DNA of 64,000 nucleotides. Origin: Gimesia benthica (GTDB lineage Bacteria > Planctomycetota > Planctomycetia > Planctomycetales > Planctomycetaceae). The stretch's first letter is position 1; every line of letters begins with the position of its first letter. This document shows positions 44,447 through 59,855 of this stretch, one piece after another. The notes beneath the pieces were generated by a model. It was given only the letters and a program-made list of their open reading frames with translations, was not told the origin of the DNA and did not search any database. Location of the stretch: positions 3,256,501 through 3,320,500 of the forward strand of contig NZ_CP043930.1 in NCBI RefSeq assembly GCF_009720525.1, read 5' to 3'. Made by a program: the position numbers and the translations under genes.

Positions 44447-45592
44447 ATGAAACCCCTGTCACACCTCAAAAACGACGTGCGGTTGACCTTTCTGCTGCTC
44501 ACGATTCCCCTGGTCACCTTCCTGGTAGCGCCCGGCTTTTTCACCTCGCGCCCCACCCAGGCCGCGGCTGCCGAACACACTCACCCGCACCCGGAAAAAA
44601 CAACCAGCACCGCCGCTGAGGAATCCACGACAGAACCGGCTTCCCACAACAGCACCGGCTGGTCATACACGCTGCTCGGCATCTATTGCGCGCTGATTGT
44701 CTTCTCGTCTTTACTGGGAGGCTGGCTCCCCTCGTTTGTCAAACTGACACATACCCGCATGGAAACGCTCATCAGTTTTGTCGGCGGACTCATGCTGGGC
44801 ATCGGCGTCTTTCATCTTCTGCCACACGCGGTCGCCGAGATGGGATCGATTGACCGCGCCGTCTGGTGGATGATGACCGGCATCATCACGCTCTTCTTCC
44901 TGCTGAGAACCTTCCACTTTCACCAGCACGGTACCGTGGAACTCGAAGAAGAAGGACACACACATGACCACGACCATGACCACGATCACGACTGCGATCA
45001 GCATCACGCGCACGCGCCGGTCCATTCGCACACGCATGCCCACTCGCATCATTTGAGCTGGGTCGGCATCGCCCTGGGCCTGGCCCTGCACACCCTGATC
45101 GACGGGCTCGCTCTCGGCGCCAGTATCATAGCCGAGCAGCACCACGAAGTCTTTCTCTCTTTGTTCGGCCTCGGAACTTTTCTGGCGATCGCACTACACA
45201 AACCACTAGATGCCGTTTCGATCACATCACTGATGGCTGCGGGTGGCTGGTCCGCCGGCTGGAGAAACGCCGTCAACATCGGCTTCGCGTTGATGTGCCC
45301 CCTCGGTGCCCTGCTCTTCTTCCTCGGCGTGCAGCAGTTTTCCGATAACCAGCACATCATCATCGGCTGTGCCCTGGCCTTCGCCGCGGGCGTCTTCATC
45401 TGTATCTCGCTGGGTGACCTGCTGCCGGAAATGGAATTCCATTCGCATAACCGCTTCCGACTTTCGTTCGTGCTCCTGCTGGGCATCGCCCTCGCATATG
45501 GCATCGGTTTTATCGAACCCGATCACGTCCACAATCACGGCTCGCACGCGGAAGAATCAGACGACGGTCACTCGCATTCGCACGATCACTAA
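44447..45592 (+). CDS. ZIP-family divalent metal transporter
   Basis: Zn2+/Fe2+/Mn2+ uptake or redistribution carrier with eight helices expected. The protein has 381 residues. A hydrophobic N-terminus precedes a His-containing linker (HTHPHPEK). A cytoplasmic His-rich loop of about 40 residues (HTHDHDHDHDHDCDQHH) lies between TM3 and TM4. TM4 carries HTLIDGLALGASI and TM5 carries ALHKPLDAVSI, which provide the binuclear metal site positions, and the C-terminus is again His-rich. It converges on a Fur-family gene six bases away, which makes zinc regulation likely. The direction of transport cannot be read from the sequence. Confidence 0.9.
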   Translation: MKPLSHLKNDVRLTFLLLTIPLVTFLVAPGFFTSRPTQAAAAEHTHPHPEKTTSTAAEESTTEPASHNSTGWSYTLLGIYCALIVFSSLLGGWLPSFVKLTHTRMETLISFVGGLMLGIGVFHLLPHAVAEMGSIDRAVWWMMTGIITLFFLLRTFHFHQHGTVELEEEGHTHDHDHDHDHDCDQHHAHAPVHSHTHAHSHHLSWVGIALGLALHTLIDGLALGASIIAEQHHEVFLSLFGLGTFLAIALHKPLDAVSITSLMAAGGWSAGWRNAVNIGFALMCPLGALLFFLGVQQFSDNQHIIIGCALAFAAGVFICISLGDLLPEMEFHSHNRFRLSFVLLLGIALAYGIGFIEPDHVHNHGSHAEESDDGHSHSHDH

Positions 45593-45598
45593 CAGCGT

Positions 45599-46045
45599 TC
45601 ACTCTTCCTCTTCACACTCGCTGCAGATTCCCTTAAGCAGGATCTCGGTCACTTTACCGACCGCCGCCCACTGCTTGTTTTTGGGCGTCTTGAACTCCAC
45701 ATCGTGCAGACACGAAACACTGCCGCATTCCGTACAGACAAAGTGCGGATGCTCTGCATCTTCCGGCTCATCCGGGTTCCGTAATTCGAACCGCCAGGCA
45801 TGATCTCCCAGCTCGGTCCGTTTCACCAGACCTGCATCCGCCAGGTCAATCAGGTTGCGATACACGGTCGCTTTATCAAAGCCCATGGGGGTCAGATCTT
45901 CTGCAATCTCGGCGTGCGTCAGTGGAGACTTCGCCTTCCGCAAAAACTGGATCACGGTAATCCGGGCCGCCGTACTCCGCAGGCCGCTCTTCCGCACCAG
46001 CTGGCGGATTTCCTCAATTTCTTCTGCTTGAGACAGATGTTTCAT
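45599..46045 (-). CDS. Fur-family metalloregulator (possible Zur)
   Basis: A 148-residue metal-dependent repressor. A winged-helix DNA-binding half (residues about 12-90, LRSTAARITVIQFL, DKATVYRNLIDLADAGLV) precedes the dimerisation half with the regulatory HPHFVCTECGSVSC motif. Two CxxC pairs (CTEC near 104 and CSEC near 143) form the structural zinc site. Neighbouring ZIP, Zn/Cd ATPase and porin genes favour zinc over iron as the sensed metal, but this is context only. The stop lies six bases from the stop of the ZIP gene. Confidence 0.9.
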   Translation of the reverse strand: MKHLSQAEEIEEIRQLVRKSGLRSTAARITVIQFLRKAKSPLTHAEIAEDLTPMGFDKATVYRNLIDLADAGLVKRTELGDHAWRFELRNPDEPEDAEHPHFVCTECGSVSCLHDVEFKTPKNKQWAAVGKVTEILLKGICSECEEEE

Positions 46046-46424
46046 AAATCAGATCCAGGCACCCCATAGTGCCGATATATGTCAGTTGTGAAGATTCAGA
46101 CAGTTCTCGGTTCGAAGCGAATATCTTAGCCATTATATACCAGAAATACGAGATTGAGGAACTTATTTGTCGTTTCCCCTGACACGCGCCCCGTAATCGG
46201 GTGCTCATTTTCCCCGTATTTACTGCATAAACTCACCTTGATCCGCCCCTCCCGAATCGTATGCTGTTCCCCTCTGGCTCGCGCGCGAGGCAGGTCAGCG
46301 TGCACCGGAACACCCGACACCACTGACGCAACAGCACCTGAATCCACACCGCTTTTCACCAGGTTTTCACCGGAGCAAACAGAACTCATGCGAAATGTTC
46401 TCCCCCCGATGTTCACGGCAGACC

Positions 46425-46507
46425 AGGACAGACCCCGGTCACACAAGGACAAAAACCGGGACACACCAGGACAAAATCCGGCCACATCGGGACAAAATTT
46501 TGTCTTG
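46425..46507. repeat. short tandem repeat, about four units of 21-22 bases
   Basis: Units start with AGGACA or GGGACA at 46425, 46446, 46468 and 46489, and share a middle of A-run/CCGG/CACA. The last unit runs into GACAAAATTTTGTC (46491-46504), a perfect 14-base palindrome. This is iteron-like. It lies upstream of the Fur-like gene start (about 400 bases), not within an ORF I trust. Confidence 0.7.
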
Positions 46508-46675
46508 ACCCCCTCACGCCATTCAGCAAAATTCAACAACAAGAATACACTCCCACAAAAAAATAAACGGCCAGGCGCCAGTCTCCGGTCTTTAACAAAA
46601 ACTCAGGGTGCCACTGTTGGCTTGCCCAACAGTGCTTGCAGAATTCACTACACCAACAACACAAGACAGAATTCC

Positions 46676-46730
46676 CGGGTGGTCCCGGATGCAATCCGGG
46701 ATTGCCGCAGGCAACAGGAGGTCACAGAAC
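46676..46730 (+). repeat. double-hairpin interspersed repeat, single unit
   Basis: Order: GGGTGG, hairpin 1 CCCGGATGCAATCCGGG (46684-46700), hairpin 2 TTGCC-GCA-GGCAA, then CAGGAGGTC. It shares architecture with the units at 47081, 48361, 48581, 48707, 51482, 51618, 57807 and 57943. Confidence 0.75.
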
Positions 46731-46751
46731 AACCGCTCAACCCCAAACCAG

Positions 46752-46850
46752 CCCACCAACCCTGAGCGGCAAGGCGCTAGCCGCCGGTAAAAAGTTTGAC
46801 GCTGATCCAAAGTCGGTGCCGAACGCTAATCCGCTCACAACGCAAACCTG
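46752..46850 (+). repeat. GCTAGCC-type interspersed repeat
   Basis: CCACCAACCCTGAGCGGCAA then GGCGCTAGCCGCCGGTAAA, followed by a tail (GACGCTGATCC...CCGAACGC) that recurs at 48852-48922. The core recurs at 48532-48573. Confidence 0.7.
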
Positions 46851-46961
46851 CCTGCATTCTACACAGCCGCCCCCCTCACGCGAGATGCACACCGGACACT
46901 CACACCAGTCACCACTCGAATAAGCACTCTCCCTTATCAGCCATCAACCGCGCACACAAAC

Positions 46962-46987
46962 ATTTCGTGTATTTCGTGGTTCATAAA
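46962..46987. repeat. TTTCGTG dispersed motif
   Basis: ATTTCGTGTATTTCGTGGTT followed by CATAAAA. Related copies lie at 48924-48946, 50001-50025, 51453-51475, 51711-51748 and 51766-51795. Confidence 0.6.
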
Positions 46988-47080
46988 AATAACAGATCGA
47001 GCCCCGCCCCCATTCTCCCCCCATTCTCCCCCTTGACCTTCCCCCAGCGTTCCCCTGTAATAGAATGACACAAGACTTCA

Positions 47081-47133
47081 CGGGTGGGCCCGAATGCAAT
47101 TCGGGCCGAGCGCAGCGAGCAGGAAACTGACAG
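47081..47133 (+). repeat. double-hairpin interspersed repeat, single unit (left type)
   Basis: GGGTGG, hairpin GCCCGAATGCAATTCGGGC (47088-47106), then the direct repeat CGAGCGCAGCGAGC and CAGGAAAC. It is 55 bases before the hydrolase start. Confidence 0.75.
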
Positions 47134-47187
47134 TGCGACTCCCGAACCAACCCAAACATCCCCTGATCTGATTGACGGTAAAATAAC

Positions 47188-48342
47188 ATGCACCTGCCAA
47201 CTCCTGTTTCCTGTTTCAATACCTCCCACCAACAAACACTCACCCGCAGCCTGCTCGTCACCATCCTGACCAGCCTGCTGATCACCCCAACCACCGCAGC
47301 AGAACGCGACCCAGCCGAGAAACCATTTACCGTCACCGAAAGCTACCAGCAACTCGCCGACGCCATGGAACCGCTGCAGGCCTGGCAGGCCACAAACAAA
47401 GCTGAGCACGCAGCCTGGCGGAAACAGTTTCATCCGACCGTCACCCGCATTCTGGGTAAAATGCCCGAGCGCGTCCCCCTGGAAGTCAAGTGGGCCGAAA
47501 AGAAAGAGTTCGACACCTTCACCCGCCACAAAGTTTTTGTCCGCACCGAAGCCGCCTATTGGGCCCCCGTCTATTACTTCGTCCCGCACAACTTAAAGAA
47601 AAAAGTGCCCGCGATTGTCTGCATGCACGGACACAGCGGCATCATCCCCTACATCGATGAAGGCAAAACCAAAGCCGACAAAGAAAAGACCCGCCAGAGC
47701 GAACTCGACTACGCCGTCTACTTCGCGAAGCATGGCTATGTTACCGCCGCCATCGTCATGCGGGGCTGGAACGAAACCGCCGGCGACCAGGATCGCGGCG
47801 TCTCACACACCAAACGCAGTTGCCTGCAGATGACCATGAACGCCCTCCTCATCGGCAGTACCCCGCAGGGCCAGCGCAGCTGGGACGCCATGCGCGTCAT
47901 CGACTTCCTGCAGACCCAGGACGAGGTCGACCCGGACCGCATCGCAGCCGCCGGCCTCTCCGGCGGCGGAGCCACCGCCATGTACCTCCCCGTCCTCGAC
48001 GAGCGCGTCAAACTCACCATGATCGCTGGCGCCTTCTCAACCTACCGCGCGTCCTACTACGCCATGCCACACTGCCTGTGTCAGTGCATGCCCGAGATGA
48101 TGCGGTTCGGCGAAATGTCCGACGTCGTCGCCCTGCACGCCCCCCGCCCGGTCCTGCTCATCAACGGCATCGAAGACAAAATCTTCCCCATCGACGCTGC
48201 CCGTGAAGGTTATGCCAAACTGCAACAGGTCTACAAAGTCCTCGGAGCAGAAGAAAACATTGACGCCGACTTCTTCCAAGGCGGCCACCGCTGGTCCAAC
48301 AACAAAAGCCTCGCCTTCCTCAAACAACACTTCGGCGAGTGA
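47188..48342 (+). CDS. exported alpha/beta hydrolase (acetyl-xylan-esterase / dienelactone hydrolase-like)
   Basis: A 384-residue secreted hydrolase. The signal segment is RSLLVTILTSLLITPTTAAE (about 22-41). The alpha/beta core includes AIVCMHGHSG (oxyanion region), GLSGGGATAMY (nucleophile Ser in GxSxG, near residue 255), LINGIEDKIFP (acid) and QGGHRWSN (His). The 47-residue Ser loop and YYAMPHCLCQCMPEMM insert are unusual but within family range. It belongs to the esterase group acting on acylated sugars; the substrate is unknown. Both flanks carry double-hairpin repeats, and there is no clear ribosome site. Confidence 0.85.
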   Translation: MHLPTPVSCFNTSHQQTLTRSLLVTILTSLLITPTTAAERDPAEKPFTVTESYQQLADAMEPLQAWQATNKAEHAAWRKQFHPTVTRILGKMPERVPLEVKWAEKKEFDTFTRHKVFVRTEAAYWAPVYYFVPHNLKKKVPAIVCMHGHSGIIPYIDEGKTKADKEKTRQSELDYAVYFAKHGYVTAAIVMRGWNETAGDQDRGVSHTKRSCLQMTMNALLIGSTPQGQRSWDAMRVIDFLQTQDEVDPDRIAAAGLSGGGATAMYLPVLDERVKLTMIAGAFSTYRASYYAMPHCLCQCMPEMMRFGEMSDVVALHAPRPVLLINGIEDKIFPIDAAREGYAKLQQVYKVLGAEENIDADFFQGGHRWSNNKSLAFLKQHFGE

Positions 48343-48360
48343 TCGCCCCAATCAGTGCCC

Positions 48361-48416
48361 ACGGATGGTCCCGGATGCAATCCGGGATTGCCGACAGGCA
48401 ACAAGAAACTGTCAGA
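48361..48416 (+). repeat. double-hairpin interspersed repeat, single unit (right type)
   Basis: GGATGG, hairpin CCCGGATGCAATCCGGG (48370-48386), second hairpin TTGCC-GACA-GGCAA, then AAGAAACTGTCAG. It begins 18 bases after the hydrolase stop, so it could sit in the mRNA 3' end. Confidence 0.75.
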
Positions 48417-48531
48417 GCAACAGCTCAATTCATCACAAGGAACCCAACCCTTGAGTTGTAGGGGCGAACCCATGTGTTCGCCCGCCTGGCGACATGCCAT
48501 CCGTATCAACGACCAAAGGGAATCACGGTCC

Positions 48532-48573
48532 GCCCACCAACCCTGAGCGGCAAGGCGCTAGCCGCCGGTAAAC
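48532..48573 (+). repeat. GCTAGCC-type interspersed repeat
   Basis: CCCACCAACCCTGAGCGGCA core continuing through GGCGCTAGCCGCCGGTAAA. It is nearly identical to 46752-46792 and ends eight bases before the composite element at 48581. Confidence 0.7.
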
Positions 48574-48580
48574 AGAACGA

Positions 48581-48753
48581 CGGGTGGGCTCGGATAAAAT
48601 CCGAGCCGAGCGCAGCGAGCAGGAGGTCCCAGAGAGATCGCCCCCTGCAGAACAAAGCCCCGATATGCTGAGGTTCGTTTCCCTAAAACAGAACGCGTGC
48701 TCCACAACCTCCTGTTGTCTCACGACAACCTCGGATTACATCCGAGGCCACCC
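48581..48753. repeat. composite double-hairpin element, copy 1
   Basis: A left unit on plus (48581-48634; hairpin CTCGGATAAAATCCGAG, then CGAGCGCAGCGAGCAGGAGGT) faces a right unit on minus (48707-48753; CCTCCTG, hairpin TTGTC-TCAC-GACAA, hairpin CTCGGATTACATCCGAG, then CCACCC). The middle shares fragments (CTGAGGT, AGAACGCG) with copies 2 and 3. The ends form terminal inverted repeats of about 24 bases. Confidence 0.8.
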
Positions 48754-48787
48754 AACAATAGAATGAACCACAGCAAATGCTCTCAGA

Positions 48788-48922
48788 AAATGAGTCGCAG
48801 GGCGTAAGCCCCGGTTGAAACGACTTTGGTATAGACCATCCGAAATAAGAAACGCTACCTGGCCGCCGGTAAAAAAGGTCGACGCCGATCCCAGAACCGG
48901 TGGCGAACGCCATTCCGCCCAC
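48788..48922. repeat. diverged GCTAGCC-type repeats
   Basis: GTCGCAGGGCGTAAGCCCCG around 48790, then GGCCGCCGGTAAAAAAGG with a tail matching 46797-46850 (GACGCCGATCC...GGCGAACGC) at 48858-48922. Confidence 0.55.
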
Positions 48923-48923
48923 A

Positions 48924-48946
48924 ACTTTTCATGCCTTCCGTGGTTC
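48924..48946. repeat. TTTCGTG dispersed motif (diverged)
   Basis: TTTTCATGCCTTCCGTGGTT, a diverged relative of the copy at 46962. Confidence 0.4.
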
Positions 48947-49140
48947 CACAAAACCCCCATTCAACGGTATTACAGAAAAATACTTAACCACTGCGTGGAA
49001 AATCGTTAATCTGTTAAAAAGCAGTTGTTAAGTCATCAGAACTCGGGGATGATAAAAGGAACAGGACCTTTGAGACCTGCCGCTTTTCATGTGGCGCACT
49101 TTCATAACTGGCTCCATGTCGGCTTCCTCCTTCCAGGACA

Positions 49141-49926
49141 ATGCACATGTTTTTCTTTGGTACAGTGAAAGAATGGGAGCGTCACGCCCTGTTTTTCCTC
49201 GGGAAGTTTTACCGGATGGTTGAGCCCGGTTTATACTTTTACATCCCCTTCGTCACGCGTGTTCTCTACCGGATCGACTTGCGAATTATCACCTACACGG
49301 TCCCCATGCAGGTAGGACTGACGAAAGACAACATTCCGGTAGAAGTGGATGCGATCCTCTTCTACCAGGTGATGGATCCCAAGGCGTGCGTTTTGAACGT
49401 CGATAACTACCACAAAGCCACACAGCTTAGCGCGCGATCCTCGATCCGGGACATGGTAGGGAAATCCAATCTTGACGAGCTCCTCGCCGAACGGGACAAA
49501 ATCGGAAAGCGGCTGAAAGAGCACATTGATGGATTCGTTTCCAAATGGGGAGTGACCGTGATTTCTGTAGAAATCAAGGACGTCATTGTTGCCAAAGAGC
49601 TGGAAGATGCCATTGCGCGCGAAGCGGCCGCCGAACGCGAAAAACGCGCACGTGTGATCCTGGCTGATGCGGAACAACTGGCTGCCGATGCCATTATCGC
49701 TGCATCCAAAAAATACGCAGACAATCCCATTGCCCTTCAACTGCGATCTATGAATATGCTCTATGAAATCTGCCTCGAGGGGAAGTCTTCTGTCGTATTT
49801 ATTCCTACCGACAAATCAATGGGCGCGATGCCCGCTTTTATGGGAATCACAAGCCTCGAAGAACTCATGAAAAAACGTTTGCAAGAGGACTCCAACGAGT
49901 TCGAAGAGACAGATAATGAAGACTAA
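49141..49926 (+). CDS. slipin / stomatin-like SPFH-domain protein
   Basis: A 261-residue band-7 (SPFH) membrane-organising protein. The SPFH core runs from GTVKEWERHALFFLGKFYRMVEPGLYFYIPFV through VGLTKDNIPVEVDAILFYQVMDP, to LDELLAERDKI and GVTVISVEIKDV. A heptad-rich stretch (AIAREAAAEREKRARVILADAEQLAADAIIAASKKY) then predicts oligomerisation, followed by LQLRSMNMLYEI. Unlike typical slipins it has no clear N-terminal membrane helix. Two Met codons (49141, 49147) are possible starts. Slipins organise lipid domains; no NfeD-type partner lies next door. Confidence 0.87.
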   Translation: MHMFFFGTVKEWERHALFFLGKFYRMVEPGLYFYIPFVTRVLYRIDLRIITYTVPMQVGLTKDNIPVEVDAILFYQVMDPKACVLNVDNYHKATQLSARSSIRDMVGKSNLDELLAERDKIGKRLKEHIDGFVSKWGVTVISVEIKDVIVAKELEDAIAREAAAEREKRARVILADAEQLAADAIIAASKKYADNPIALQLRSMNMLYEICLEGKSSVVFIPTDKSMGAMPAFMGITSLEELMKKRLQEDSNEFEETDNED

Positions 49927-50000
49927 CCAACAGGACTTTTGAACCTGCCTCAATCCAGTTGAGCACTGTTTATACCCCTTTTGATTCACTGCAAACAGAT

Positions 50001-50025
50001 TTTTTTCGTGTTTTTGTGGTTCTTA
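50001..50025. repeat. TTTCGTG dispersed motif
   Basis: TTTTTTCGTGTTTTTGTGGTT, between the convergent slipin and methyltransferase genes. Confidence 0.45.
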
Positions 50026-50050
50026 AATCAGATCACTCGAGTCTCCCGAA

Positions 50051-50599
50051 TCACTCCACCACCCGATACCCCTTCCATCGCGGCACCCAGCACCGCACCT
50101 CCCGGCGATACGCCACAAACGCCTCCCCGAACCGCTTCTCCAGGTCCTGCTCTTCCACCGGCCGCACACAAATATTCCACAGCACCATGCCGACTACCAC
50201 GTACGCCAGAACCAGACCGCTGCCGAAATACAAACCCACGGCGGCCCCCTGCACCAGCCCCGCAATCGCCATCGGGTTCCGTACAAACCGATACGGTCCC
50301 GCCACCACCAGCTGCCGCGCCGTATCGAAAGGGACCGGCGTCCCGCGACCATAAATGCCCATCGTCGCCCCGCTGGTCAGCCCCAGGCTCCCCCCCAGCA
50401 CAAACAGGATCACTCCCAGCACCCGCTGCCCGTCGAACCGAAACGCCGGCCATCCCAGAACACCTTCCAGCCAGATCAGCCCCGCCGGGAGCACCAGCAG
50501 AAACAGCGTCCAGAACACGACCGTCTGCAGCACAATCTTCAGCAGCAGCCACCACAGTGGCGTCTCAGCCCGCGTCGGTCGAAATGTGATCTTGAACAT
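50051..50599 (-). CDS. isoprenylcysteine-O-methyltransferase-like (PEMT/ICMT) membrane protein
   Basis: A 182-residue integral membrane protein with four or so hydrophobic segments. The C-terminal half holds the family signature: GPYRFVRNPMAIAGLV, then VRPVEEQDLEKRFGEAFVAYRREV. The RxPxY-like NP motif and the E-E-L-x-x-x-F-G-x-x-Y pattern bind S-adenosylmethionine in this fold. Bacterial members may methylate lipids or quinone-like substrates, and the true substrate is unknown. Its start lies 35 bases inside the upstream membrane protein gene, so the two are probably translationally coupled. Confidence 0.85.
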   Translation of the reverse strand: MFKITFRPTRAETPLWWLLLKIVLQTVVFWTLFLLVLPAGLIWLEGVLGWPAFRFDGQRVLGVILFVLGGSLGLTSGATMGIYGRGTPVPFDTARQLVVAGPYRFVRNPMAIAGLVQGAAVGLYFGSGLVLAYVVVGMVLWNICVRPVEEQDLEKRFGEAFVAYRREVRCWVPRWKGYRVVE

Positions 50600-51008
50600 C
50601 CCCGGCTTTCCCGCAACATCGGCCCGTATGAATCAGACAAACCAGCAGCATCAGTCCCAGACACACCAGCATCAGACAGGTTCCCAGCCAGCCCCCTTGC
50701 GTCGTCAGGCTCAGCGACAGACAGTACAGGCTCACATAAGCAATGCCGCCCGTCAGAAAATACAACACCGGCCCCGCCCAGCAGCGCTGCCGCCAGAGAC
50801 CATACGCCAGCACAAAAGAACCGCCCACAAACACCACCCCGTCCGGCAGCCAGAACGCCAGCAGCACCCGCTCCGACAGTGTCTCCGACAGAAACAGCGC
50901 CCGACTCTCCGGCACCGCCAGCAACAGACACCACCACCCCACGCCGCCCAGCCCCTGCAGCAGCGGATAAAGAAACAACCAGCTTTTCCAATCCGATTCT
51001 GATTTCAT
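50565..51008 (-). CDS. small polytopic membrane protein, unknown
   Basis: A 147-residue protein with about four hydrophobic segments (for example WLFLYPLLQGLGGVGWWCLLLAV and CLMLVCLGLMLLVCLI) and a short Cys-containing tail. I recognise no family. ATG 51008 has GAGGATT upstream; a frame from 51044 would add 12 residues. It overlaps the ICMT-like gene by 35 bases, which suggests they work together, perhaps in the modification of a membrane lipid. Confidence 0.6.
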   Translation of the reverse strand: MKSESDWKSWLFLYPLLQGLGGVGWWCLLLAVPESRALFLSETLSERVLLAFWLPDGVVFVGGSFVLAYGLWRQRCWAGPVLYFLTGGIAYVSLYCLSLSLTTQGGWLGTCLMLVCLGLMLLVCLIHTGRCCGKAGDVQDHISTDAG

Positions 51009-51099
51009 ATTGCTAATCCTCGCGGAATACGACACGATTACCAACAGGAAATGTCACAAAGTGTAAGGGAAATCACGAATTTCAATCCACCAGAGAACC

Positions 51100-51420
51100 A
51101 TGCAAACCAGACTCAAGCCGCGATATCTGATTCCAGCGACGCTCGTTGTCATCCTCATCTCAACAGTGTGGCACTTTCGAGATGAGCTGACTCTCTACTG
51201 GCATACCGCCCCCGAGTTCCACGCCCGGTTTGAGAAAATTGAACGAGGACAAACCAGGTCAGAAGTCGAGGAAATCCTGGGCAAGCCGGCGCATCACTTC
51301 GCCTTTGAGGACAGCCTGGAATATTATCTTGGCTGGCCACGCGATCAACACACCACTTATGCAGTGAAGTTTCGCGACGGTCATGTCATCGCCAGTTACG
51401 ATCGATTTGGTTCATTCTAA
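51100..51420 (+). CDS. small membrane-anchored protein with SmpA/OmlA (BamE-like) domain
   Basis: A 106-residue protein: one N-terminal helix (YLIPATLVVILISTVW) then a domain with RFEKIERGQTRSEVEEILGKPA, the pattern of SmpA/OmlA/BamE-like folds, where a Gly-x-(S/T)-xx-E-V segment precedes LGxP. It may stabilise an envelope complex. It has no operon partner and is followed at 32 bases by a TTTCGTG motif, then a composite repeat. Length and composition are consistent with a real gene. Confidence 0.68.
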   Translation: MQTRLKPRYLIPATLVVILISTVWHFRDELTLYWHTAPEFHARFEKIERGQTRSEVEEILGKPAHHFAFEDSLEYYLGWPRDQHTTYAVKFRDGHVIASYDRFGSF

Positions 51421-51452
51421 ACCAGCTGCTACACGAGTCCCGACTCGAAGCA

Positions 51453-51475
51453 TTTTTTCGTGTCTTTTTTGTTTA
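51453..51475. repeat. TTTCGTG dispersed motif (diverged)
   Basis: TTTTTTCGTGTCTTTTTTGT, just before the composite element at 51482. Confidence 0.4.
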
Positions 51476-51481
51476 CTCAAA

Positions 51482-51664
51482 GGGTAACCCCGAATGCAAT
51501 TCGGGGCGAGCACAGCGAGCTGGAGGTCCCAGCGAAAATGATCAATTCAGTGCAATGACTCCGACATCCCTCAGTAAGTGAGGTACATTCCCCCCTCAAC
51601 AAAACGCGAACTCCGCAACCTCCTGTTGTCTCACGACAACCTCGGATTACATCCGAGGCCACCC
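51482..51664. repeat. composite double-hairpin element, copy 2
   Basis: Left unit (51482-51531): hairpin CCCCGAATGCAATTCGGGG at 51488-51506, then GAGCACAGCGAGCTGGAGGT. Right unit (51618-51664): CCTCCTG, TTGTC-TCAC-GACAA, CTCGGATTACATCCGAG at 51641-51657. The arms of the left hairpin differ from those of the right, yet both remain self-complementary. The middle has CATCCCTCAG.AAGTGAGGT.CATTC, shared with copy 3. Confidence 0.8.
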
Positions 51665-51710
51665 GAATCGTAACAAAACCGTCAAAAATCCTTTTCAGTC
51701 ACCTAACAAA

Positions 51711-51795
51711 AATTTTCGTGTTTTTCGTGCCTTTCGTGGTTTATAAAAAAATCCATTACGACCATGGTTCATAAAATTTCGTATCTTTCGTGGTC
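51711..51795. repeat. cluster of TTTCGTG motifs
   Basis: Two adjacent copies: AATTTTCGTGTTTTTCGTGC followed by CTTTCGTGGTTTATAAAA (51711-51748), and GGTTCATAAAATTTCGTATC continuing to TTTCGTGGTCCACC (51766-51795). They lie 110-190 bases before the CE15-like gene start. Confidence 0.55.
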
Positions 51796-51902
51796 CACCC
51801 ACGGTTTCATATTGCCAATCCTTGCGGAAACCGGCACGATTGAGAATAGTAACCTCAGTACTTACAAAAGATCTCCCACCAGAATATAAAGGCCGCCTCA
51901 CC

Positions 51903-53180
51903 ATGAAACGTCTGCTGTTCCTGCTCAGCCTTACGCTGCTGTTGACTCCCGCTGCCCACGCCCAGCGTCCCAAACCCAATTACGATGAAAGCCAGGTCCC
52001 GAAATTCAAACTCCCCGACCCGCTCGTCACCAATAAAGGGAAAAAGGTCGATTCAGCAGAGGAGTGGCAGAACGTTCGCCGCCCCGAAATTCTGGAGCTC
52101 TTCGAAAACGAAGTCTACGGCAAAAGCCCTGCAGCCCCTAAAGACATGCTGTTCGAAGTCACCTCTGTCAAGAACGACGCCCTCGGCGGCAAGGCCATCC
52201 GTAAGGAAGTCTCGGTCTATTTCTCGGGCAAGAAAGAAGAACCGCGGATGGATCTGTTGATCTATCTCCCCGCGAAAGCCACCAAGCCGGTCCCTGTCTT
52301 CATGGGTCTCAACTTTTACGGCAACCACACCATCACCGATGAGACAGACGTCAAACTCAACGACCACTGGATGCGGTCCAACAAAGACAAAGGCATCGTC
52401 GACCATAAAGCGACCGAAGCCTCACGGGGCAAGTCATCGTCCCGCTGGCCCATCGAAAAGATTATCGATCGCGGCTACGGACTCGTCGCCATCTACTGCG
52501 GCGACATCGACCCCGACTATGACGACGGCTTCAAGAACGGCGTGCACGCCCTCTATAATTCCAAACAGAAACCTGCGCCCGATGAATGGGGCACGATCGC
52601 TGCCTGGGCCTGGGGACTCAGCCGCGCCCTGGATTACCTCGAAACCGACAAACAGATCGACGCGAACAAAGTCGCCGTCATGGGACACTCCCGTCTCGGG
52701 AAAACCTCCCTCTGGGCCGGCGCACAGGATCCACGGTTCGCCCTCGTCATTTCTAACGACTCCGGTTGTGGCGGTGCCGCCCTCAGCCGTCGTCGCTTCG
52801 GCGAAACCCTGCACGTCATCAACAATGCCTTCCCCCACTGGTTCTGTGACAACTTCAACAAGTATATCGACAAGGAAAACGAGCTCCCCGTCGATCAACA
52901 TATGCTGATCTCACTGATCGCCCCCCGCCCCGTCTACGTCGCCAGTGCCGTCGAAGACCGCTGGGCCGATCCCAAGGGAGAATTCCTCTCGGTCAAATAT
53001 GCGGAGCCCGTTTACAAACTGCTCGGCACCTCCGGCTTCGGTGCAGACAAGATGCCCGGCATCAACGAACCCGTGCAGAAGCAGATGGGCTATCACATCC
53101 GCACCGGCAAACACGATGTGACCGACTTCGACTGGGAACAGTACCTCAACTTCGCCGACCAGCATTTCCGGGGCAGCTGA
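51903..53180 (+). CDS. secreted CE15 glucuronoyl-esterase-like hydrolase
   Basis: A 425-residue exported alpha/beta hydrolase similar to CE15 (4-O-methyl-glucuronoyl methylesterase). The signal peptide ends at AHAQ (residue about 22). The core has VFMGLNFYGNHT (oxyanion strand), VAVMGHSRLGKTSLWAGAQDPRFALVISNDSG with the nucleophile Ser in GHSRxG, and a C-terminal RTGKHDVTDFDWEQYLNFADQHF with His. The GHSRxGK motif is the CE15 hallmark. The enzyme would cleave ester links between lignin or sugars and glucuronic acid in plant or algal polysaccharides; the real substrate is inference. ATG 51903 is chosen because the signal peptide begins there. Confidence 0.88.
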   Translation: MKRLLFLLSLTLLLTPAAHAQRPKPNYDESQVPKFKLPDPLVTNKGKKVDSAEEWQNVRRPEILELFENEVYGKSPAAPKDMLFEVTSVKNDALGGKAIRKEVSVYFSGKKEEPRMDLLIYLPAKATKPVPVFMGLNFYGNHTITDETDVKLNDHWMRSNKDKGIVDHKATEASRGKSSSRWPIEKIIDRGYGLVAIYCGDIDPDYDDGFKNGVHALYNSKQKPAPDEWGTIAAWAWGLSRALDYLETDKQIDANKVAVMGHSRLGKTSLWAGAQDPRFALVISNDSGCGGAALSRRRFGETLHVINNAFPHWFCDNFNKYIDKENELPVDQHMLISLIAPRPVYVASAVEDRWADPKGEFLSVKYAEPVYKLLGTSGFGADKMPGINEPVQKQMGYHIRTGKHDVTDFDWEQYLNFADQHFRGS

Positions 53181-53408
53181 TCCCGGTTCATCCGCCCGCC
53201 GATTCCCCGTAGTCTGAACACCAGTCGATAACCAACGATCGACAGTTGGGTTACGGGGACTTTTCTGCGCAGAATGCAGCCTTGAAAGCGGGTTTTCGTC
53301 GGGGAAAAAGCAGTTTTCGCGATGCCCGCTTGCCTCTACCTGAACTCCCACGATAAGATGGGAGCGTGTTCACGATTCCTTAATTAAGACCGATCAGACG
53401 ATTTCAAT

Positions 53409-56400
53409 ATGATGAATCAACGTTTCCGGCTCCCTTCCTTTGATGCCTCTTCCCTCCGCAGGTTCGCCCTGATTTTACTCTGTCTCTGCCTGCTCCCGAC
53501 CACCCTGGTCCGGGCCGACAAAGCCAGTGATGAATTTCAGCTGGCCATCGGCCTCTACAAGCAGAACCGCTGGGAACTGGCGACCGAGACGTTTCAGAAG
53601 TACCTCAAGGATTACCCCAACCACGAAAACGTGCCGCTGGCGAAATTCTACCTGGGGCTCACGCTCGTCAATCAGCAGAAGTATAAAGAGGCCCGCGACA
53701 TTCTGCGGGAGTTCGTGAAGCAGTATCCCCAGAATAAAAATCTCCCCGACGCCCTGTATCGCGTCGCCGAGTGCAGTTACCTGCTCGATGATCTGAAAGC
53801 AGCCGAGTCCGAGTTCACCGACTTCCTCAAACGCTACCCCAATCACGCCCTCGAAGAATGGGCCTATGCCTATTTCGGAGATGCACTACTCCGGCAGGGG
53901 AAAGCTGACCTGGCGATCAAGAGTTTCCAGCGTTCCCTCGATCGGCACCCGGAAGGCGCCATGTCGCAGGATGCCCAGTTCGGTCTCGCGTCCGCTTACC
54001 TGCAGAACAAACAACCCAAAGAAGCAGAGAAACGCTTCCTGCAGATCGCCAGTCAGAAAACCCATTCCCGGGCCAGCGACGCCCAGATGGCACTGGCCAC
54101 ATCACTCTTTGATCGCGGACAATTCCAACAGGCCGCGGATGCCTTTCTGGCACTGCCCACCAAATTCCCCGAAAGTCCCCTGGGCATCACGGCTCGCCTG
54201 AATGCCGGCTATGCCTTTTACGATCTGAAACAGTACGACAAGGCCGTGGAACAGTTCGACATCGTCGCCAAAGATCCCGCGCAGGCCGCCAATGCCCTCT
54301 ACTGGAAAGGGGTCAGCCTCAAGGCCGCCGGTCAGCTCTCGGAAGCCATTACTGCGCTGGAACAGTCCCAGAAAGCCAAACCCTCGTCCGCTCAGCAGCC
54401 CTTGATAAACTACCAGCTGGCCGACGCCCTGCTCCGCAGCGGTAAACAGGCTCAGGCCAAAACCCTGTTCCTGGACCTGGTCAAGCAGTCGCCTCAGAGT
54501 GAGCTGGCTGACGACAGCCTGCACTTCGCCATCGAAGCCGCCCTGCTCAGCGACCAACTCGAAGAAGCCGCTCAGCTCGCTGCCCGGTTTGAAAAAGAGT
54601 ATCCCCAGAGTGGACTTCGCCTGCACCAGGAACTGCTCAAAGGACGCATCAGCGATGCCCAGGGCAAGCCCGAAGATCTACAGGCCGCCGTCAAACACTT
54701 TCAAAACGTACTCGACCAGAGCAAGCTCGAGAACACACAACTGCTGGCCCGTCTGTACCTCGCGCGGACTTATCAGAAGCTGAAAGAATACCAGAAGTCG
54801 ATCGACGTTCTGAAGCCGTACCTCGATGACGCGAACACCGACAAAACGACCAGCGAATACGCGGACGCCCTGATCCTGCAGAGCAACAACTTCAACTCGC
54901 TGCAGAAATTCCCGGAAGCGGAGTCGCTGGCCAAAACGTATCTCAAGCAGTTCCCCAATGAACCCCGCTACGATCAGATCCTCGCGAACCTGACCATCCT
55001 CACTTCCAAAAACGACAAGCCCGCGGAAGTTGATCAGTATCTCGCAGAACTGGAAAAACGCAAACCGAATCTCGACCTCCTGATCCAGACCTATCGACAA
55101 CTGGCCGAACGCAATTACGAAAACCAGCAGTGGAGCCGTGCGAAGAAGTTCTTCGCTGAAATCGTCGAGCGCGGTGCGACCTCCCCCGAATTCCCGGCCG
55201 GCCTGTCGGGCCTCGCCTGGAGTGAGTTTCAGCTGAATGAATTCCCCGCAGCGGCAACGCACTTTGAACAGTTCACCAAAGAGTTCCCCAAGAACCCGCT
55301 GGCCGCGGAAGCCTCTTACATGCAGGGACGCAGTCTGGAAAGCGACCAGAAGCTCCAGCCCGCAGTCGACGTCTATCAGCAGACCCTCAAACAGTTCGCC
55401 CCCTCGCGTTATGCGATGCTCTCGGGACTGCAGGCCGCTCGCACACTGTTCCAGCTGAAGAAAATCGATGAAGTCAACAAGGCCTACGAAGCCCTGCTGG
55501 CCAAGTTCCCCAAGCCCGACAACTTGGATAAGATCCTCGATGAATGGGCACTCATCAATTACGAAGCCGAAATGTTCGACGAGTCAGATGCGATCTTCCG
55601 CCGACTCGTCAAAGAGACCCCGGACAGCGAGCTGGCTGACAATGCCCGCCTGAGCCTCGCCGAAAGCGATCTCATTGCCGGCAAACTCGATGCCGCCGCG
55701 AAAGAATTCGACGCCCTGCAGGCTTCCGAGAAATCCGATCAGAAGGTACAGGAAGTCTCCCTCTACCGGTTAATCGAAATCAATCTGGAACAGCAGAAAT
55801 GGAAAGAGGTCGAGAAGTTCAGCCAGGATCTGCTCAAGCGGTTCCCCCAGAATGAATACGCGGCCTTCGCTCGTTTCCACCAGGCGGAAGCCGCCCTGTA
55901 TCTGAACCAGGTCGAAGCGGCTCAGAAAGAACTGCTGACCCTCACAACCAAAGAACAGACCGAACAGCTGGGCGACCGTCCCTGGTATCCACGGGTCTGG
56001 GTGCTGCTCGCTGAGACTTACTTCCGGCAGAAAAAATATGCCGAAGTCCAGAAAACCGTCGACCAGTTCCGCAGCTGGGATCCGGAGAGCCCCTTCCTTT
56101 ATCAGGCGGAAGAGGTCCTGGGACGCAGCCTGAAGAATCAGGCCAAATTCGACGAAGCCCGCAAAGTCTTCCAGAAAATTATCGACTCGGAAAACAGCCG
56201 CCGCACCGAAACCGCGGCCAAGTGCCAGTTCCTGCTCGCTGAAACCCTGATGATCCAGGAGAAATTCAAGGAAGCCCTGCTCGCCTATCTGCAGGTCGAT
56301 ATTCAATATAAATTCCCCGAATGGCAGGCCCCGGCCCTGTTTCAGGCCGGCATGTGCCACGAAGCTTTGAAGGAATGGAAACAGGCGTTGAAAACATATC

Positions 56401-56489
56401 AGGACTTTTTGAAGCGTTTCCCGGAACACGAACTGGCCGCCCGCGTCAAAGAACGCATCCAGCAGGTCCAGCCCCGGGCCGGCACCTGA
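53409..56489 (+). CDS. giant exported TPR-repeat protein
   Basis: A 1026-residue secreted or periplasmic protein. The signal peptide runs RFALILLCLCLLPTTLVRADK (about 18-38). Nearly the whole mature chain is tetratricopeptide repeats, beginning SDEFQLAIGLYKQNRWELATETFQKYLKDYPNH, with the A-x-Y/F-x-G-x-x-L and YP-x-S/N spacing of about 34-37 residues; YbgF- and BamD-like repeats are the nearest known relatives. The repeats probably form a scaffold for envelope proteins. It precedes an ExbB/TolQ gene by 224 bases, and in planctomycetes TPR, ExbB and ExbD genes are often together, so a role in a Tol/Exb system is plausible. Confidence 0.88.
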   Translation: MMNQRFRLPSFDASSLRRFALILLCLCLLPTTLVRADKASDEFQLAIGLYKQNRWELATETFQKYLKDYPNHENVPLAKFYLGLTLVNQQKYKEARDILREFVKQYPQNKNLPDALYRVAECSYLLDDLKAAESEFTDFLKRYPNHALEEWAYAYFGDALLRQGKADLAIKSFQRSLDRHPEGAMSQDAQFGLASAYLQNKQPKEAEKRFLQIASQKTHSRASDAQMALATSLFDRGQFQQAADAFLALPTKFPESPLGITARLNAGYAFYDLKQYDKAVEQFDIVAKDPAQAANALYWKGVSLKAAGQLSEAITALEQSQKAKPSSAQQPLINYQLADALLRSGKQAQAKTLFLDLVKQSPQSELADDSLHFAIEAALLSDQLEEAAQLAARFEKEYPQSGLRLHQELLKGRISDAQGKPEDLQAAVKHFQNVLDQSKLENTQLLARLYLARTYQKLKEYQKSIDVLKPYLDDANTDKTTSEYADALILQSNNFNSLQKFPEAESLAKTYLKQFPNEPRYDQILANLTILTSKNDKPAEVDQYLAELEKRKPNLDLLIQTYRQLAERNYENQQWSRAKKFFAEIVERGATSPEFPAGLSGLAWSEFQLNEFPAAATHFEQFTKEFPKNPLAAEASYMQGRSLESDQKLQPAVDVYQQTLKQFAPSRYAMLSGLQAARTLFQLKKIDEVNKAYEALLAKFPKPDNLDKILDEWALINYEAEMFDESDAIFRRLVKETPDSELADNARLSLAESDLIAGKLDAAAKEFDALQASEKSDQKVQEVSLYRLIEINLEQQKWKEVEKFSQDLLKRFPQNEYAAFARFHQAEAALYLNQVEAAQKELLTLTTKEQTEQLGDRPWYPRVWVLLAETYFRQKKYAEVQKTVDQFRSWDPESPFLYQAEEVLGRSLKNQAKFDEARKVFQKIIDSENSRRTETAAKCQFLLAETLMIQEKFKEALLAYLQVDIQYKFPEWQAPALFQAGMCHEALKEWKQALKTYQDFLKRFPEHELAARVKERIQQVQPRAGT

Positions 56490-56713
56490 CGGACACTGTC
56501 TGCCTGTTCCCAAAGTTCGTGCATCAGGAAATCCAACCGCGGGAAATCCCAATCCAGACTCGACGCCATATTCCATCTCGCGTAAACTAGAGCACGAACT
56601 GAATTCCCCATTCCGGGTAAGTCAGGCTCATCCAATCCCGCGCCTCTCTTCCGGTTGATCCGGCTAAGCTCCGGGCCGGTTTATTAGTCATTACACAGCG
56701 ATACCCCTGGTTC

Positions 56714-57673
56714 ATGATCAAACTCTTCCACAGTCCACAGGAATTCTCTACTCCCGATCTCGCGGTCCAGAGTCCCTCTCGACGACTGGTCAGTCTGGTC
56801 ATGACACTCCTGGTAACGCTGGTCCTCTTCGCCCCGTTCGCCTCCGCTCAGGAGCGACTGCCCAAAGTCGTCGAACAGCGGGGCGACAAACTCGTGGAAG
56901 CAGCGGATCCCGACGGTCCCCTGCCCGAATCGGTGGCCGCCGTCAAACAACGGCAGGTGATCCCTTCCACGCCCGAAGATATCATCGAAGAGATGGGCTA
57001 CTTCCTGCTCCCCTTCGTGATCGCTTCCATCATCTCCATGTGGTTCATCATCGAACGCCTGGTGATTCTCCGCTCCGGCCGCGTCATACCCAAACACTTT
57101 GTCAGCCGCTTTCTCAAGCTGCTTAGGGACGGCAAACTCAACGCACGCTCCGCCCTGAAACTGTGTGAGGAAAACCCGAGCCCGATTGCTTCGGTCTTCG
57201 CGCACGGCGTCCGAAAATGGGGCAAGCCGAGTGTCGAAGTGGAACAGGCCATCATCGACGGCGGCGAACGTCAGCTGTCACAACTTCGGAAACACCTCCG
57301 CGTGATCAACGGCGTCGCTACAGTCGCCCCCCTGATGGGTCTGCTGGGAACCGTGATCGGCATGATCCAGGCCTTCAACGAAATCGCCAACAGCAGCGCG
57401 ATGGGCAAAGCGGAAGAACTCGCCGTCGGCATCGCGATGGCCCTGCTCACCACCGCCTTCGGTCTGGGCATCGCCATCCCCTCGCTGATCATGTACATGT
57501 ACCTGGCCGGCCGCGTGGATGGACTCGTGATGGAGATGGACCAGAATGCACAGGACCTCGTCCACCTGATTTCCGCCGAAGGGCTCGCCGCCAGTGCCGC
57601 CAGCCGCAAAACGACCACAACCACCACCACGACGGCCAAAGCCAAAACGGATAAAGCAGCCAGTAAGTCGTAG
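56714..57673 (+). CDS. MotA/TolQ/ExbB proton-channel family protein with N-terminal extension
   Basis: A 319-residue inner-membrane protein. The first 60 residues contain a hydrophobic signal or anchor ([21 protein letters not shown]) and a periplasmic stretch rich in Val/Glu/Pro. The canonical core then begins at [29 protein letters not shown], followed by the TolQ-domain helices with [25 protein letters not shown] (the proton-path Thr/Gly region) and [19 protein letters not shown]. The C-terminus is a Thr- and Lys-rich tail. Partner ExbD/TolR is not in the next kilobase, where a composite repeat lies instead. Confidence 0.9.
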
Positions 57674-57713
57674 GCACGTGCAACAACCCTCGCGACTGCG
57701 CGGCAATTCAAAA

Positions 57714-57745
57714 TTAGCCGCAGAACGTTAGCCCCGGTTCTTCCC
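57714..57745. repeat. diverged GCTAGCC-type repeat remnant
   Basis: AGCCGCAGAACGTTAGCCCC followed by GGTTCTTCC, close to GGGCGTAAGCCCCGGTTG at 48796. Confidence 0.4.
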
Positions 57746-57806
57746 GTTTGCAAAGACACATTCTACCCAGCAGCACCAACCGCTCCATCCAAGCTTCCAA
57801 TAGAAT

Positions 57807-57988
57807 GGGTGGGCTCGGATGTAATCCGAGCCGAGCGCAGCGAGCAGGAGGTCTCAGAAAAATCGATCGGTTCAGAGCGAATCCACCAACCTGCATCCCT
57901 GAGATGAGGTGCACTCCCCCACAGCAGAACGCGTACACCGCAACCTCCTGTTGTCTCCGACAACCTCGAATTCCATTCGAGGCCACCC
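57807..57988. repeat. composite double-hairpin element, copy 3
   Basis: Left unit: GGGTGG, hairpin CTCGGATGTAATCCGAG, CGAGCGCAGCGAGCAGGAGGT. Right unit: CCTCCTG, TTGTCTCCGACAA, hairpin CTCGAATTCCATTCGAG, CCACCC. The 24-base ends (57807-57830 and 57965-57988) are inverted repeats with two mismatches in the hairpin arms, each compensated within its own hairpin. Internal CATCCCTGAGATGAGGTGCA matches copy 2. Confidence 0.8.
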
Positions 57989-58202
57989 GACCTGATGGAC
58001 GACTAAATACATCCCCCGTTACCCAACGATGATACCCCGTTCGCACCCGCATCGTCTCGATCCTCGCGAACTTCCACTTCTAAGTTGTTCCCCGACCTGT
58101 TCCGATTTACAATGAATTCTGATCTCTCCCGTGGGAGAACCGGCATTTCCGCCAGCTGAAACAGCGACTCATTCATTCTCTTGAAACACGACGAGAACCG
58201 GT

Positions 58203-59039
58203 ATGGCTGACTCCAAAGAATTCAAGGCAGTCCCCCTCGAAGAAGAACTGTCTCAACTTGAGCGCGATCTCAAGTTCTATCCTTCCACCACTGCTGATCC
58301 ACAACTGCTGACGGTCGCACAGATCGAAGACTTCAACCGCGACGGCTTCCTCCGTGGCATTCGCATCTTTGACGACCAGGAAGTCATCGCCAACCGCGAA
58401 TACTTTGATCAGCTGCTGGAGCAGGTCATCGCCGCGGGTGGTAACAGCTACTCGATCAGCACTGCCCACATGAAGTACGGCAAAGTCTACGATCTGCTCA
58501 CCCATCCCAGGATCGTCGCCCATGTCAAAGATCTGCTCGGCGAAAACGTGATTGCCTGGGGATCGCATTTCTTCTGCAAAATGCCCCATGACGGGAAGGC
58601 CGTCTCCTGGCATCAGGACGCCAGTTACTGGCCGCTATCCCCCTCCAAGGCGGTCACGGTCTGGTTGGCCATCGATGACGCCGACCCGGAAAACGCCAAC
58701 ATGCGATTCATCGCCGGCAGTCATCACTACGGACACATGACCTACCGCCCCAGCGGTTCCCACGAAGACAACGTACTCAATCAGACCATCGACAATCCCG
58801 AACAGTACGGCGCTCCCGTTGACGATACTCTGAAAGCCGGCGAGATTTCGATTCACTCCGACCTGCTCCTGCACGGTTCCGAAGCCAACCAGTCCGACCG
58901 CCGCCGCTGTGGACTCACTCTCCGCTACTGTGCCGCAGATGTCCGCGCCGGGATGGACTGGAACGCCAAAGGTGTGATTGTCGCCGGTTCCGATCCTTCC
59001 GGACACTGGCTCAATCCACCTCGGCCGGAAAACGATTAA
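58203..59039 (+). CDS. phytanoyl-CoA dioxygenase (PhyH)-family Fe(II)/2-oxoglutarate oxygenase
   Basis: A 278-residue mononuclear iron oxygenase with the two-His-one-carboxylate facial triad. WHQDASYW gives His and Asp (near residue 139). The distal His is in HSDLLLHGSEANQSDRRR, followed by the 2-oxoglutarate-binding Arg in the next strand (RRCGLTLRYC). A preceding FDDQEVIANREYFDQLLEQV is an N-terminal helix typical of the bacterial branch. Hydroxylation of a small alkaloid-, sugar- or lipid-type substrate is expected; no substrate is evident. An aquaporin gene starts about 45 bases downstream and may be co-transcribed. Confidence 0.88.
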   Translation: MADSKEFKAVPLEEELSQLERDLKFYPSTTADPQLLTVAQIEDFNRDGFLRGIRIFDDQEVIANREYFDQLLEQVIAAGGNSYSISTAHMKYGKVYDLLTHPRIVAHVKDLLGENVIAWGSHFFCKMPHDGKAVSWHQDASYWPLSPSKAVTVWLAIDDADPENANMRFIAGSHHYGHMTYRPSGSHEDNVLNQTIDNPEQYGAPVDDTLKAGEISIHSDLLLHGSEANQSDRRRCGLTLRYCAADVRAGMDWNAKGVIVAGSDPSGHWLNPPRPEND

Positions 59040-59084
59040 ACTCCCAACCTCCATTTGAGTTTCATGCTCGGGAAGTCATCAGAG

Positions 59085-59786: not shown

Positions 59787-59855
59787 TGGCGCTCGCACCT
59801 TGAGATATCTTAAATCGCTCGTTTTGCATTCACAGCAACAGAAGAGGAACAAACC

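Follow-up and report, generated by a model that had tools for sequence, protein, structure and literature searches.

The 64,000-bp window of the Gimesia benthica chromosome analysed here (contig NZ_CP043930.1, positions 3,256,501 to 3,320,500) carries nine copies of a short, hairpin-forming repeat. We consider it very probable that these units are repetitive extragenic palindromic (REP) elements, that their inverted pairs are REP doublets forming hairpins (REPINs), and that both are copied or moved by a cognate, domesticated REP-associated tyrosine transposase (RAYT) encoded at C1:2163527-2164036. REPs are small, non-coding mobile repeats, and the hairpins found here represent their planctomycete version, apparently spread through the genome by this domesticated transposase.

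An earlier, sequence-only reading of this DNA had described nine units built from GGGTGG, a perfect palindromic hairpin, a second element and AGGAGGT. All nine were found again, at the positions and on the strands given in Table 1, with the plan somewhat looser at its edges. The head is exactly GGGTGG in seven units and a 1-2-base variant in the others (GGATGG at 48363, GGGTAA at 51482), and the tail is exactly AGGAGGT in six, with TGGAGGT at 51482, GGAAAC at 47082 and AGAAAC at 48363. The perfect hairpin held throughout: hairpin 1 has 8 or 9 Watson-Crick pairs and a 3-nt loop in all nine units. Six units form three inverted pairs with their heads outward, and three are solo. A pattern scan of the window allowing up to three mismatches gave 11 matches, the nine units plus two weak matches at other positions; shuffled sequence gave 2.3 on average, and none of 100 shuffles reached 11. 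A simple pattern of GGGTGG, a gap and CG was at chance level (38 found, 37.4 expected). When folded as single-stranded DNA by minimum free energy, every window unit folds better than the mean of its own shuffles (z -2.1 to -4.6), and five of the nine give two neighbouring hairpins. In the four GAG-type units (e.g. CGAGC-GCA-GCGAG), hairpin 1 alone is clear in the fold prediction.

The family extends over the whole 8.03-Mb chromosome, where the motif has 148 matches with up to two mismatches, as against one for a reversed control. From the window and 43 chromosome regions 120 units were collected, and 117 were kept after three poor matches (77435, 2635506 and 3097385) had been dropped ahead of the covariation, pairing and gene-position counts. 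The collecting pattern leaves four variable hairpin-1 pairs free or restricted to R/Y only, and two of the 117 units (3 mismatches) were admitted partly because they pair. Those four pairs are Watson-Crick in 114, 108, 114 and 114 of the 117 units, above shuffle maxima of 76, 73, 100 and 62, which bears out the earlier observation that arm bases change in matched pairs. The hairpin-1 loop is GNA in 95 units. A GT[AG]G foot is present in 94 (GGGTGG 86, GGGTAG 5, CGGTGG 2, AGGTGG 1) and lacking in 23, including GGGTAA in 11, GGATGG in five and GGGTGA in three; the collecting pattern itself favours GGGTGG.

None of the 117 units lies inside a predicted gene, though 72.6% of the 259,825 bases were called coding by the home-made codon-usage caller that supplied the genes for this count. 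The units are thus short palindromes in many extragenic copies, as REP elements are. The sequence-only reading had proposed looking for intergenic copies, and had named a lack of copies elsewhere as one finding that would count against it; copies occur both in the organism's own genome and in its relatives. Head-outward pairs number 26, are 172-195 bp long and hold 52 of the units, and within 260 bp we found two head-inward pairs and nine direct neighbours. Each of the 26 consists of two inverted REPs at a fixed short distance, which is the arrangement of a REPIN. The 65 unpaired units comprise 47 on the plus and 18 on the minus strand, and no rule from GC skew or gene direction was found for this imbalance.

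The chromosome has three Y1 transposase genes. One of them, the RAYT gene, lies on the minus strand 1.1 Mb from the window and is flanked on both sides by REPINs of the same family, the layout of a REPtron, or RAYT system, in which a Y1 transposase gene sits between its cognate REPs. 'REP-like', one of the options that the sequence-only reading had offered, was right. Elements of this kind could also be miniature inverted-repeat transposable elements (MITEs) that depend on the mobile transposase of an ordinary IS200/IS605 transposon, and both the narrow length of the inverted pairs and the Y1 transposase homology would fit. However, the gene scores 112.7 bits against the NCBIfam model REP_Tyr_transpos (cut-off 80) and only 30.1 under the IS200 model (cut-off 55), a single match to the RAYT is seen in its own genome at E≤0.001, and a GT[AG]G foot with many extragenic palindromes is described as a feature of REPs (PMC6006769, PMC3733652). 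We regard MITEs of a mobile transposon as a very improbable explanation. A plasmid search with one unit returned 21 records. None spans 80% of the query, and E values are 3-9 for the 15 listed.

At the protein level, a profile of the RAYT clade finds the E. coli TnpA_REP structure 4er8 (E 2.8e-9), the closest solved structure by sequence profile, and the single-sequence comparison of E. coli TnpA_REP with this RAYT gives a distant match (E 0.0021). H60, V61, H62 and Y130 are invariant in RAYT alignment A1, as are H60, V61, H62 and Y131 in alignment A3. By alignment with 4er8, we take the two histidines of this HUH (histidine-hydrophobic-histidine) motif and the tyrosine to be the catalytic residues, as presumed from the family at large. 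The predicted structure of the Pan216 RAYT has a mean predicted local distance difference test (pLDDT) score of 89.7.

RAYT orthologues with 73-82% identity occur in the sister species G004, G007, G009 (where the gene is split in two frames) and G013, all of them flanked by the same REPIN family. Among four RAYT genes of the genus that were read to their 3' ends, the stop codon falls inside hairpin 1 of the downstream unit in G000 and G007, and not in G004 and G013. Across the genus, the five genomes with a close RAYT hold 73-202 motif matches; of the twelve without one, eight hold 5-50 and four (G008, G011, G012 and G014) hold 123-186. G008 and G012, with 157 and 152 motif matches, have a different gene at the RAYT position (L172, L173): an unrelated gene of 207 residues, with REP units on both sides and the far-side unit degenerate, for which Pfam gave no match. 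Because a different gene stands there, the RAYT has been replaced in these two genomes and did not decay in place.

The same plan, with different stems, recurs in the flanks of related RAYTs. A RAYT-alignment search of named genomes yielded 47 loci of RAYT relatives, mostly Planctomycetota, the exceptions being three Desulfarculales, one labelled Deltaproteobacteria and one unnamed bacterium. Several of these loci share one genome, and they are partly non-independent, L093 and L206, like L108 and L218, being the same places in one genome. The recurring plan is GGGTRG, hairpin 1, a short hairpin 2 that usually has a GNA loop, and an AAGAGG-like tail. By a strict rule it is present at 28 of the 47 loci and in no shuffled flank; by a relaxed rule it is present at 33, with 0-1 locus in each of 10 shuffles. 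At 22 loci of other RAYT clades neither rule finds it, and five of these control loci carry a different, single-hairpin REP, GGGTGGCACTGTTGGC-TTG-CCCAACAGTG and variants. In the best unit of each of 34 loci the hairpin-2 loop is GNA in 22 (GCA 11, GAA 10, GGA 1), GGTA in four and something else in eight. The second element, left unnamed in the sequence-only reading, is a hairpin too (probably so in the GAG-type units) and is found again in other planctomycetes.

The two-hairpin plan also follows the RAYT phylogeny. The tree has 53 rows. Of the 38 on one side of a branch (support 90/87), 31 are two-hairpin by rule, as against none of the 15 others. A group test counting the 31 two-hairpin and five single-hairpin rows, without 17 others, separates the two kinds by one branch with support 99/96. 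Of 75 loci, 22 were too short or had stops and are not in the tree, and the tree program gave a warning about long branches among the non-clade rows. For covariation we aligned 21 units, one per locus, picked from the 33 relaxed loci because their stems are alike in length; several of them share one genome. Changes on both sides are seen in 11 of 12 pairs, including all four of hairpin 2; the covariation score is 0.812 against a shuffled mean of 0.209 and values of at most 0.079 in slid controls, and four of five covariation measures beat all 500 shuffles. The percentage paired in these rows arises partly by construction, because they were chosen for pairing; a fairer comparison is with the slid, shuffled and shuffled-flank controls.

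A covariance model, R1, was built from these 21 units, none of which comes from the genus of G. benthica. In the window it gives four hits at E≤1 (46677, 48753, 51664 and 57988), all among the nine units, with E values of 0.0004-0.0013. Run on 57 RAYT loci at E≤0.1, it finds 29 of the 33 clade loci whose units had no part in building it; one of these (L093) is the same place as L206, which did contribute. At E below 0.001 it finds 20 of the 33, as against one of the 22 controls. Of 297 genomes of the class, 79 have an R1 match (E≤0.01), 50 have the RAYT clade (E≤1e-40, a cut set after the score gap was seen) and 45 have both. R1 thus matches in 45 of the 50 genomes with the RAYT clade and in 34 of the 247 without, an odds ratio of 56 (Fisher p 6e-26, uncorrected for kinship), and four of the five RAYT-positive, R1-negative genomes are sister species that have units by pattern. 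Class searches over 40 genomes apply stricter filters and score at most 20 candidates in each genome; match numbers from them are not copy numbers.

Three near relatives, G004, G008 and G012, at about 95% identity and with long matches to the region that are 92-97% identical, were compared for the presence of individual units. Six of the nine window units are absent from G004, two are shared and one is outside the compared DNA; one is absent from G008, seven are shared and one is unclear; three are absent from G012, five are shared and one is unclear. Over four compared regions with 29 units, the G000 units absent number 10 in G004 and three each in G008 and G012. Read base by base at 47082 and 48363, units of about 80 bp are present or missing by genome, and nearby bases differ too. 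Presence and absence at orthologous sites is what mobile REPs and REPINs display, and the pattern fits gain or loss alike.

Hairpins of this strength might also act at the RNA level, as transcription terminators or mRNA 3' stabilisers spread passively by duplication. Where both neighbouring genes were called (109 units), they converge on the unit in 46 cases and diverge from it in 10; 43 of 59 solo units have a 3' end as their nearest gene end; the region as a whole is rich in terminator-like sites (34, shuffled mean 16.6); and E. coli REPs have been reported to act on mRNA (PMC6006769). However, no T-run follows the unit hairpins, which are succeeded instead by AGGAGGT or AGGAAAC-like tails. 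Of the 34 terminator-like sites, one (46674-46689, minus) shares bases with a unit but is not the unit's hairpin, and one (51605-51617, minus) falls in the spacer of a REPIN, so that the earlier suggestion of mRNA ends found no backing. Rfam gave no match over the gathering score in window positions 44000-60000, and the units have no significant orientation bias to genes (15 same, 8 opposite, p 0.21). The close association with a transposase clade, seen in the sequences, in the tree and across genomes, also speaks against a purely RNA-level role, which we think very improbable. An influence on mRNA might still accompany a mobile REP as a by-product.

REPs and REPINs of a domesticated RAYT therefore remain our preferred explanation, and several observations weigh against it. 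Five of the nine units in the window escape R1 (all four of the GAG type, and 48363), and the GAG-type hairpin 2 requires a tandem G.A mismatch and is not predicted by the folding program. Sheared GA pairs and stable GNA loops are known in DNA chemistry, and they are the basis on which we infer a second hairpin in GAG-type units. The relaxed rule finds no unit at 14 of the 47 related-RAYT loci, and in the fifth covariation measure, which counts pair types, 28 of 500 shuffles equalled or exceeded the real alignment. R1 also hits six of the 22 control loci at E≤0.1, one of them strongly (L112 in G017, 46.5 bits, E 5.7e-6), and L112 contains what looks like a genuine two-hairpin unit. The sisters G008, G011, G012 and G014 are REP-rich without a close RAYT, and the 34 of 247 class genomes that match R1 without the RAYT clade include seven of the 23 with other RAYTs only; such matches fit RAYT loss or distant RAYTs, yet they are a real exception. 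Finally, base-exact empty sites were not found at 47082 and 48363 in the relatives, where the insertion junctions are not base-exact because the absent alleles also differ from the present ones in nearby bases.

In G. benthica every one of the 26 REPINs has a GAG-type second element at one end and a TTG-type at the other, where 47% would be expected (p 2.5e-9, uncorrected for shared descent). At other loci, represented by one pair each and with the arms of hairpin 2 delimited by eye (L112, among these, adjoins a RAYT of another clade), the hairpin-2 stems are unlike at the two ends in 11 of 12. Hairpin 1 also differs between ends in nine of these 12. As an end marker it is the less divergent per base, its bases being identical at 77 of 96 positions and those of hairpin 2 at 28 of 48 (p 0.009), and it was set aside in that role. 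That the two ends mostly carry different hairpin-2 stems suggests that hairpin 2 may mark them. It is possible, though we hold it rather doubtful, that the Planctomycetota have a distinct class of REP with a bipartite single-strand code, in which hairpin 1 would set which RAYT reads the element, hairpin 2 would set the end, and the RAYT would join one of each. On that tentative proposal, hairpin 2 would mostly be GNA-capped and sometimes a sheared tandem G.A stem.

These REPs and REPINs are very probably non-autonomous elements related to the IS200/IS605 type (HUH, Y1) that are recognised in the form of folded single-stranded DNA. Each REP of the RAYT clade has a family-specific hairpin 1 and a short hairpin 2, mostly with a GNA loop, with AAGAGG or a similar tail after it. 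At the foot of hairpin 1, GTGG could be the guide tetranucleotide, as judged from homology to TnpA_REP, and the RAYT may nick and join the strand at the unit. Solo units would then be decayed or half elements.

Table 1. REP units and REPINs in the 64-kb window, with R1 matches and occurrence in the near relatives
Feature	Positions	Strand	Structure	R1 match	Relatives
Solo REP unit	46677..46722	+	hairpin 2 TTGCC-GCA-GGCAA, tail AGGAGGT; two hairpins in DNA fold, z -3.0	33.0 bits, E 0.00038	unclear or outside compared DNA
Solo REP unit	47082..47127	+	GAG-type second element, tail AGGAAAC	none	present in G008; absent in G004, G012
Solo REP unit	48363..48408	+	head GGATGG, hairpin 2 TTGCC-GACA-GGCAA	none	present in G012; absent in G004, G008
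REPIN, 172 bp	48582..48753	.	GAG-type end 48582 (+), TTGTC-type end 48753 (-)	right end E 0.0013, left end none	absent in G004; common to G008, G012
REPIN, 183 bp	51482..51664	.	GAG-type end, head GGGTAA, 51482 (+); TTGTC-type end 51664 (-)	right end E 0.0013, left end none	absent in G004, G012; common to G008
REPIN, 182 bp	57807..57988	.	GAG-type end 57807 (+), TTGTC-type end 57988 (-); whole-element DNA fold z -3.45	right end E 0.00092, left end none	common to G004, G008, G012

The genes that the sequence-only reading had placed next to the units, a hydrolase, a CE15-type esterase and ExbB, are confirmed by Pfam. Other repeats share this neighbourhood. A second, single-hairpin REP family, GGGTGCCACTGTTGGCTTGCCCAACAGTG, has one copy in the window (46606-46634, plus) and 12 in the genome with up to three mismatches (control 0), and relatives of this REP flank RAYTs of another clade in sister species. 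A third palindromic family, GAGCGGCAAGGCGCTAGCCGCCGGTAAA, occurs at window positions 46764-46791 and 48545-48572 (plus) and in 49 copies in the genome at the same tolerance (control 0). Its copies at 3955201, 3955395 and 3956046 bracket another Y1 transposase gene (3955592-3955891), so this family, too, may be REP-like and have a transposase of its own. A dispersed repeat of about 290 bp (window 46223-46513) has at least 13 further genome copies that are 76-86% identical, and more in sister species. A fourth short repeat is found at window positions 48787-48816 and 57710-57739, 83% identical, the first copy with a GGGCGTAAGCCC hairpin.

The system described here is ordinary in kind, being REPs and REPINs with a RAYT, and as far as we have seen new in form, in that its REPs make up a two-hairpin class linked to one RAYT clade. 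Earlier work has established RAYTs, REPtrons and REPs with a GT[AG]G foot (PMC6006769, PMC8266576, PMC3116915), and planctomycete REPs have been reported, with R. baltica named (PMC3733652). The same source describes some dimers with stem-loops in the spacer, Pseudomonas REPs attached to stem-loops unrelated to them, and heterodimers in other REP families, said to be without obvious explanation (PMC3733652). For E. coli, S. maltophilia and Marinomonas proteins, strand-specific binding and CT/CA cleavage of single-stranded REP have been described (PMC8266576). A two-hairpin class tied to one RAYT clade did not appear in titles or abstract openings among the literature matches listed, and the word planctomyc- is absent from the main text of PMC12306157. 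The sequence-only reading had known of no named family that fits; the units do fall into the REP/REPIN class, and hairpin 1 of two of them matches a published REP, while the two-hairpin form appears undescribed in the literature portions cited here. Our results suggest that a good part of the intergenic repeats in this planctomycete genus belongs to RAYT-type systems. In the literature cited here, the mechanism of REPIN movement by RAYTs is still treated as unsettled. With recognition apparently split over two hairpins, with natural unlike ends and with many species-specific sequence versions, these elements offer matched RAYT/REP pairs for asking which part sets specificity and whether unlike ends are needed.

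Among known systems, the REPs, REPINs and RAYTs of Pseudomonas and Stenotrophomonas have the same GT[AG]G foot, inverted doublets, extragenic position and RAYT flanked by elements, and the S. maltophilia REP is likewise a perfect palindrome of 8 bp with a 3-nt loop (PMC8266576); the units described here add a second hairpin and an AAGAGG-like tail to what is described for those REPs. The Pseudomonas mendocina REP GTAGCCCGGATGCAATCCGGG (PMC2817692, Table 1) has a hairpin identical to hairpin 1 of units 46677 and 48363, CCCGGATGCAATCCGGG, a likeness of hairpin sequence alone to an element listed in that table with one hairpin and a gammaproteobacterial host. E. coli BIMEs (bacterial interspersed mosaic elements) and the TnpA_REP REPtron (4er8) have REPs with one bulged stem and GTAG, unlike those found here, and the proteins are distant. 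Closer in host, the GTAG families of Rhodopirellula baltica and Opitutus terrae are likewise REPs of Planctomycetes and relatives, with heterodimers described and, in O. terrae, a GTGG foot variant as here; the text on them mentions no conserved second hairpin, and it is by that description only that we set them apart (PMC3733652). The double inverted repeats of P. putida and P. fluorescens also combine a REP with a second stem-loop beside a Y1 transposase gene, in hundreds of copies, as here, and are described as a degenerated GTAG-1 unit with an unrelated stem-loop, forming terminal inverted repeats (PMC3733652). In the planctomycete elements, by contrast, the REP hairpin shows no such degeneration, and covariation is seen in both hairpins across genera.

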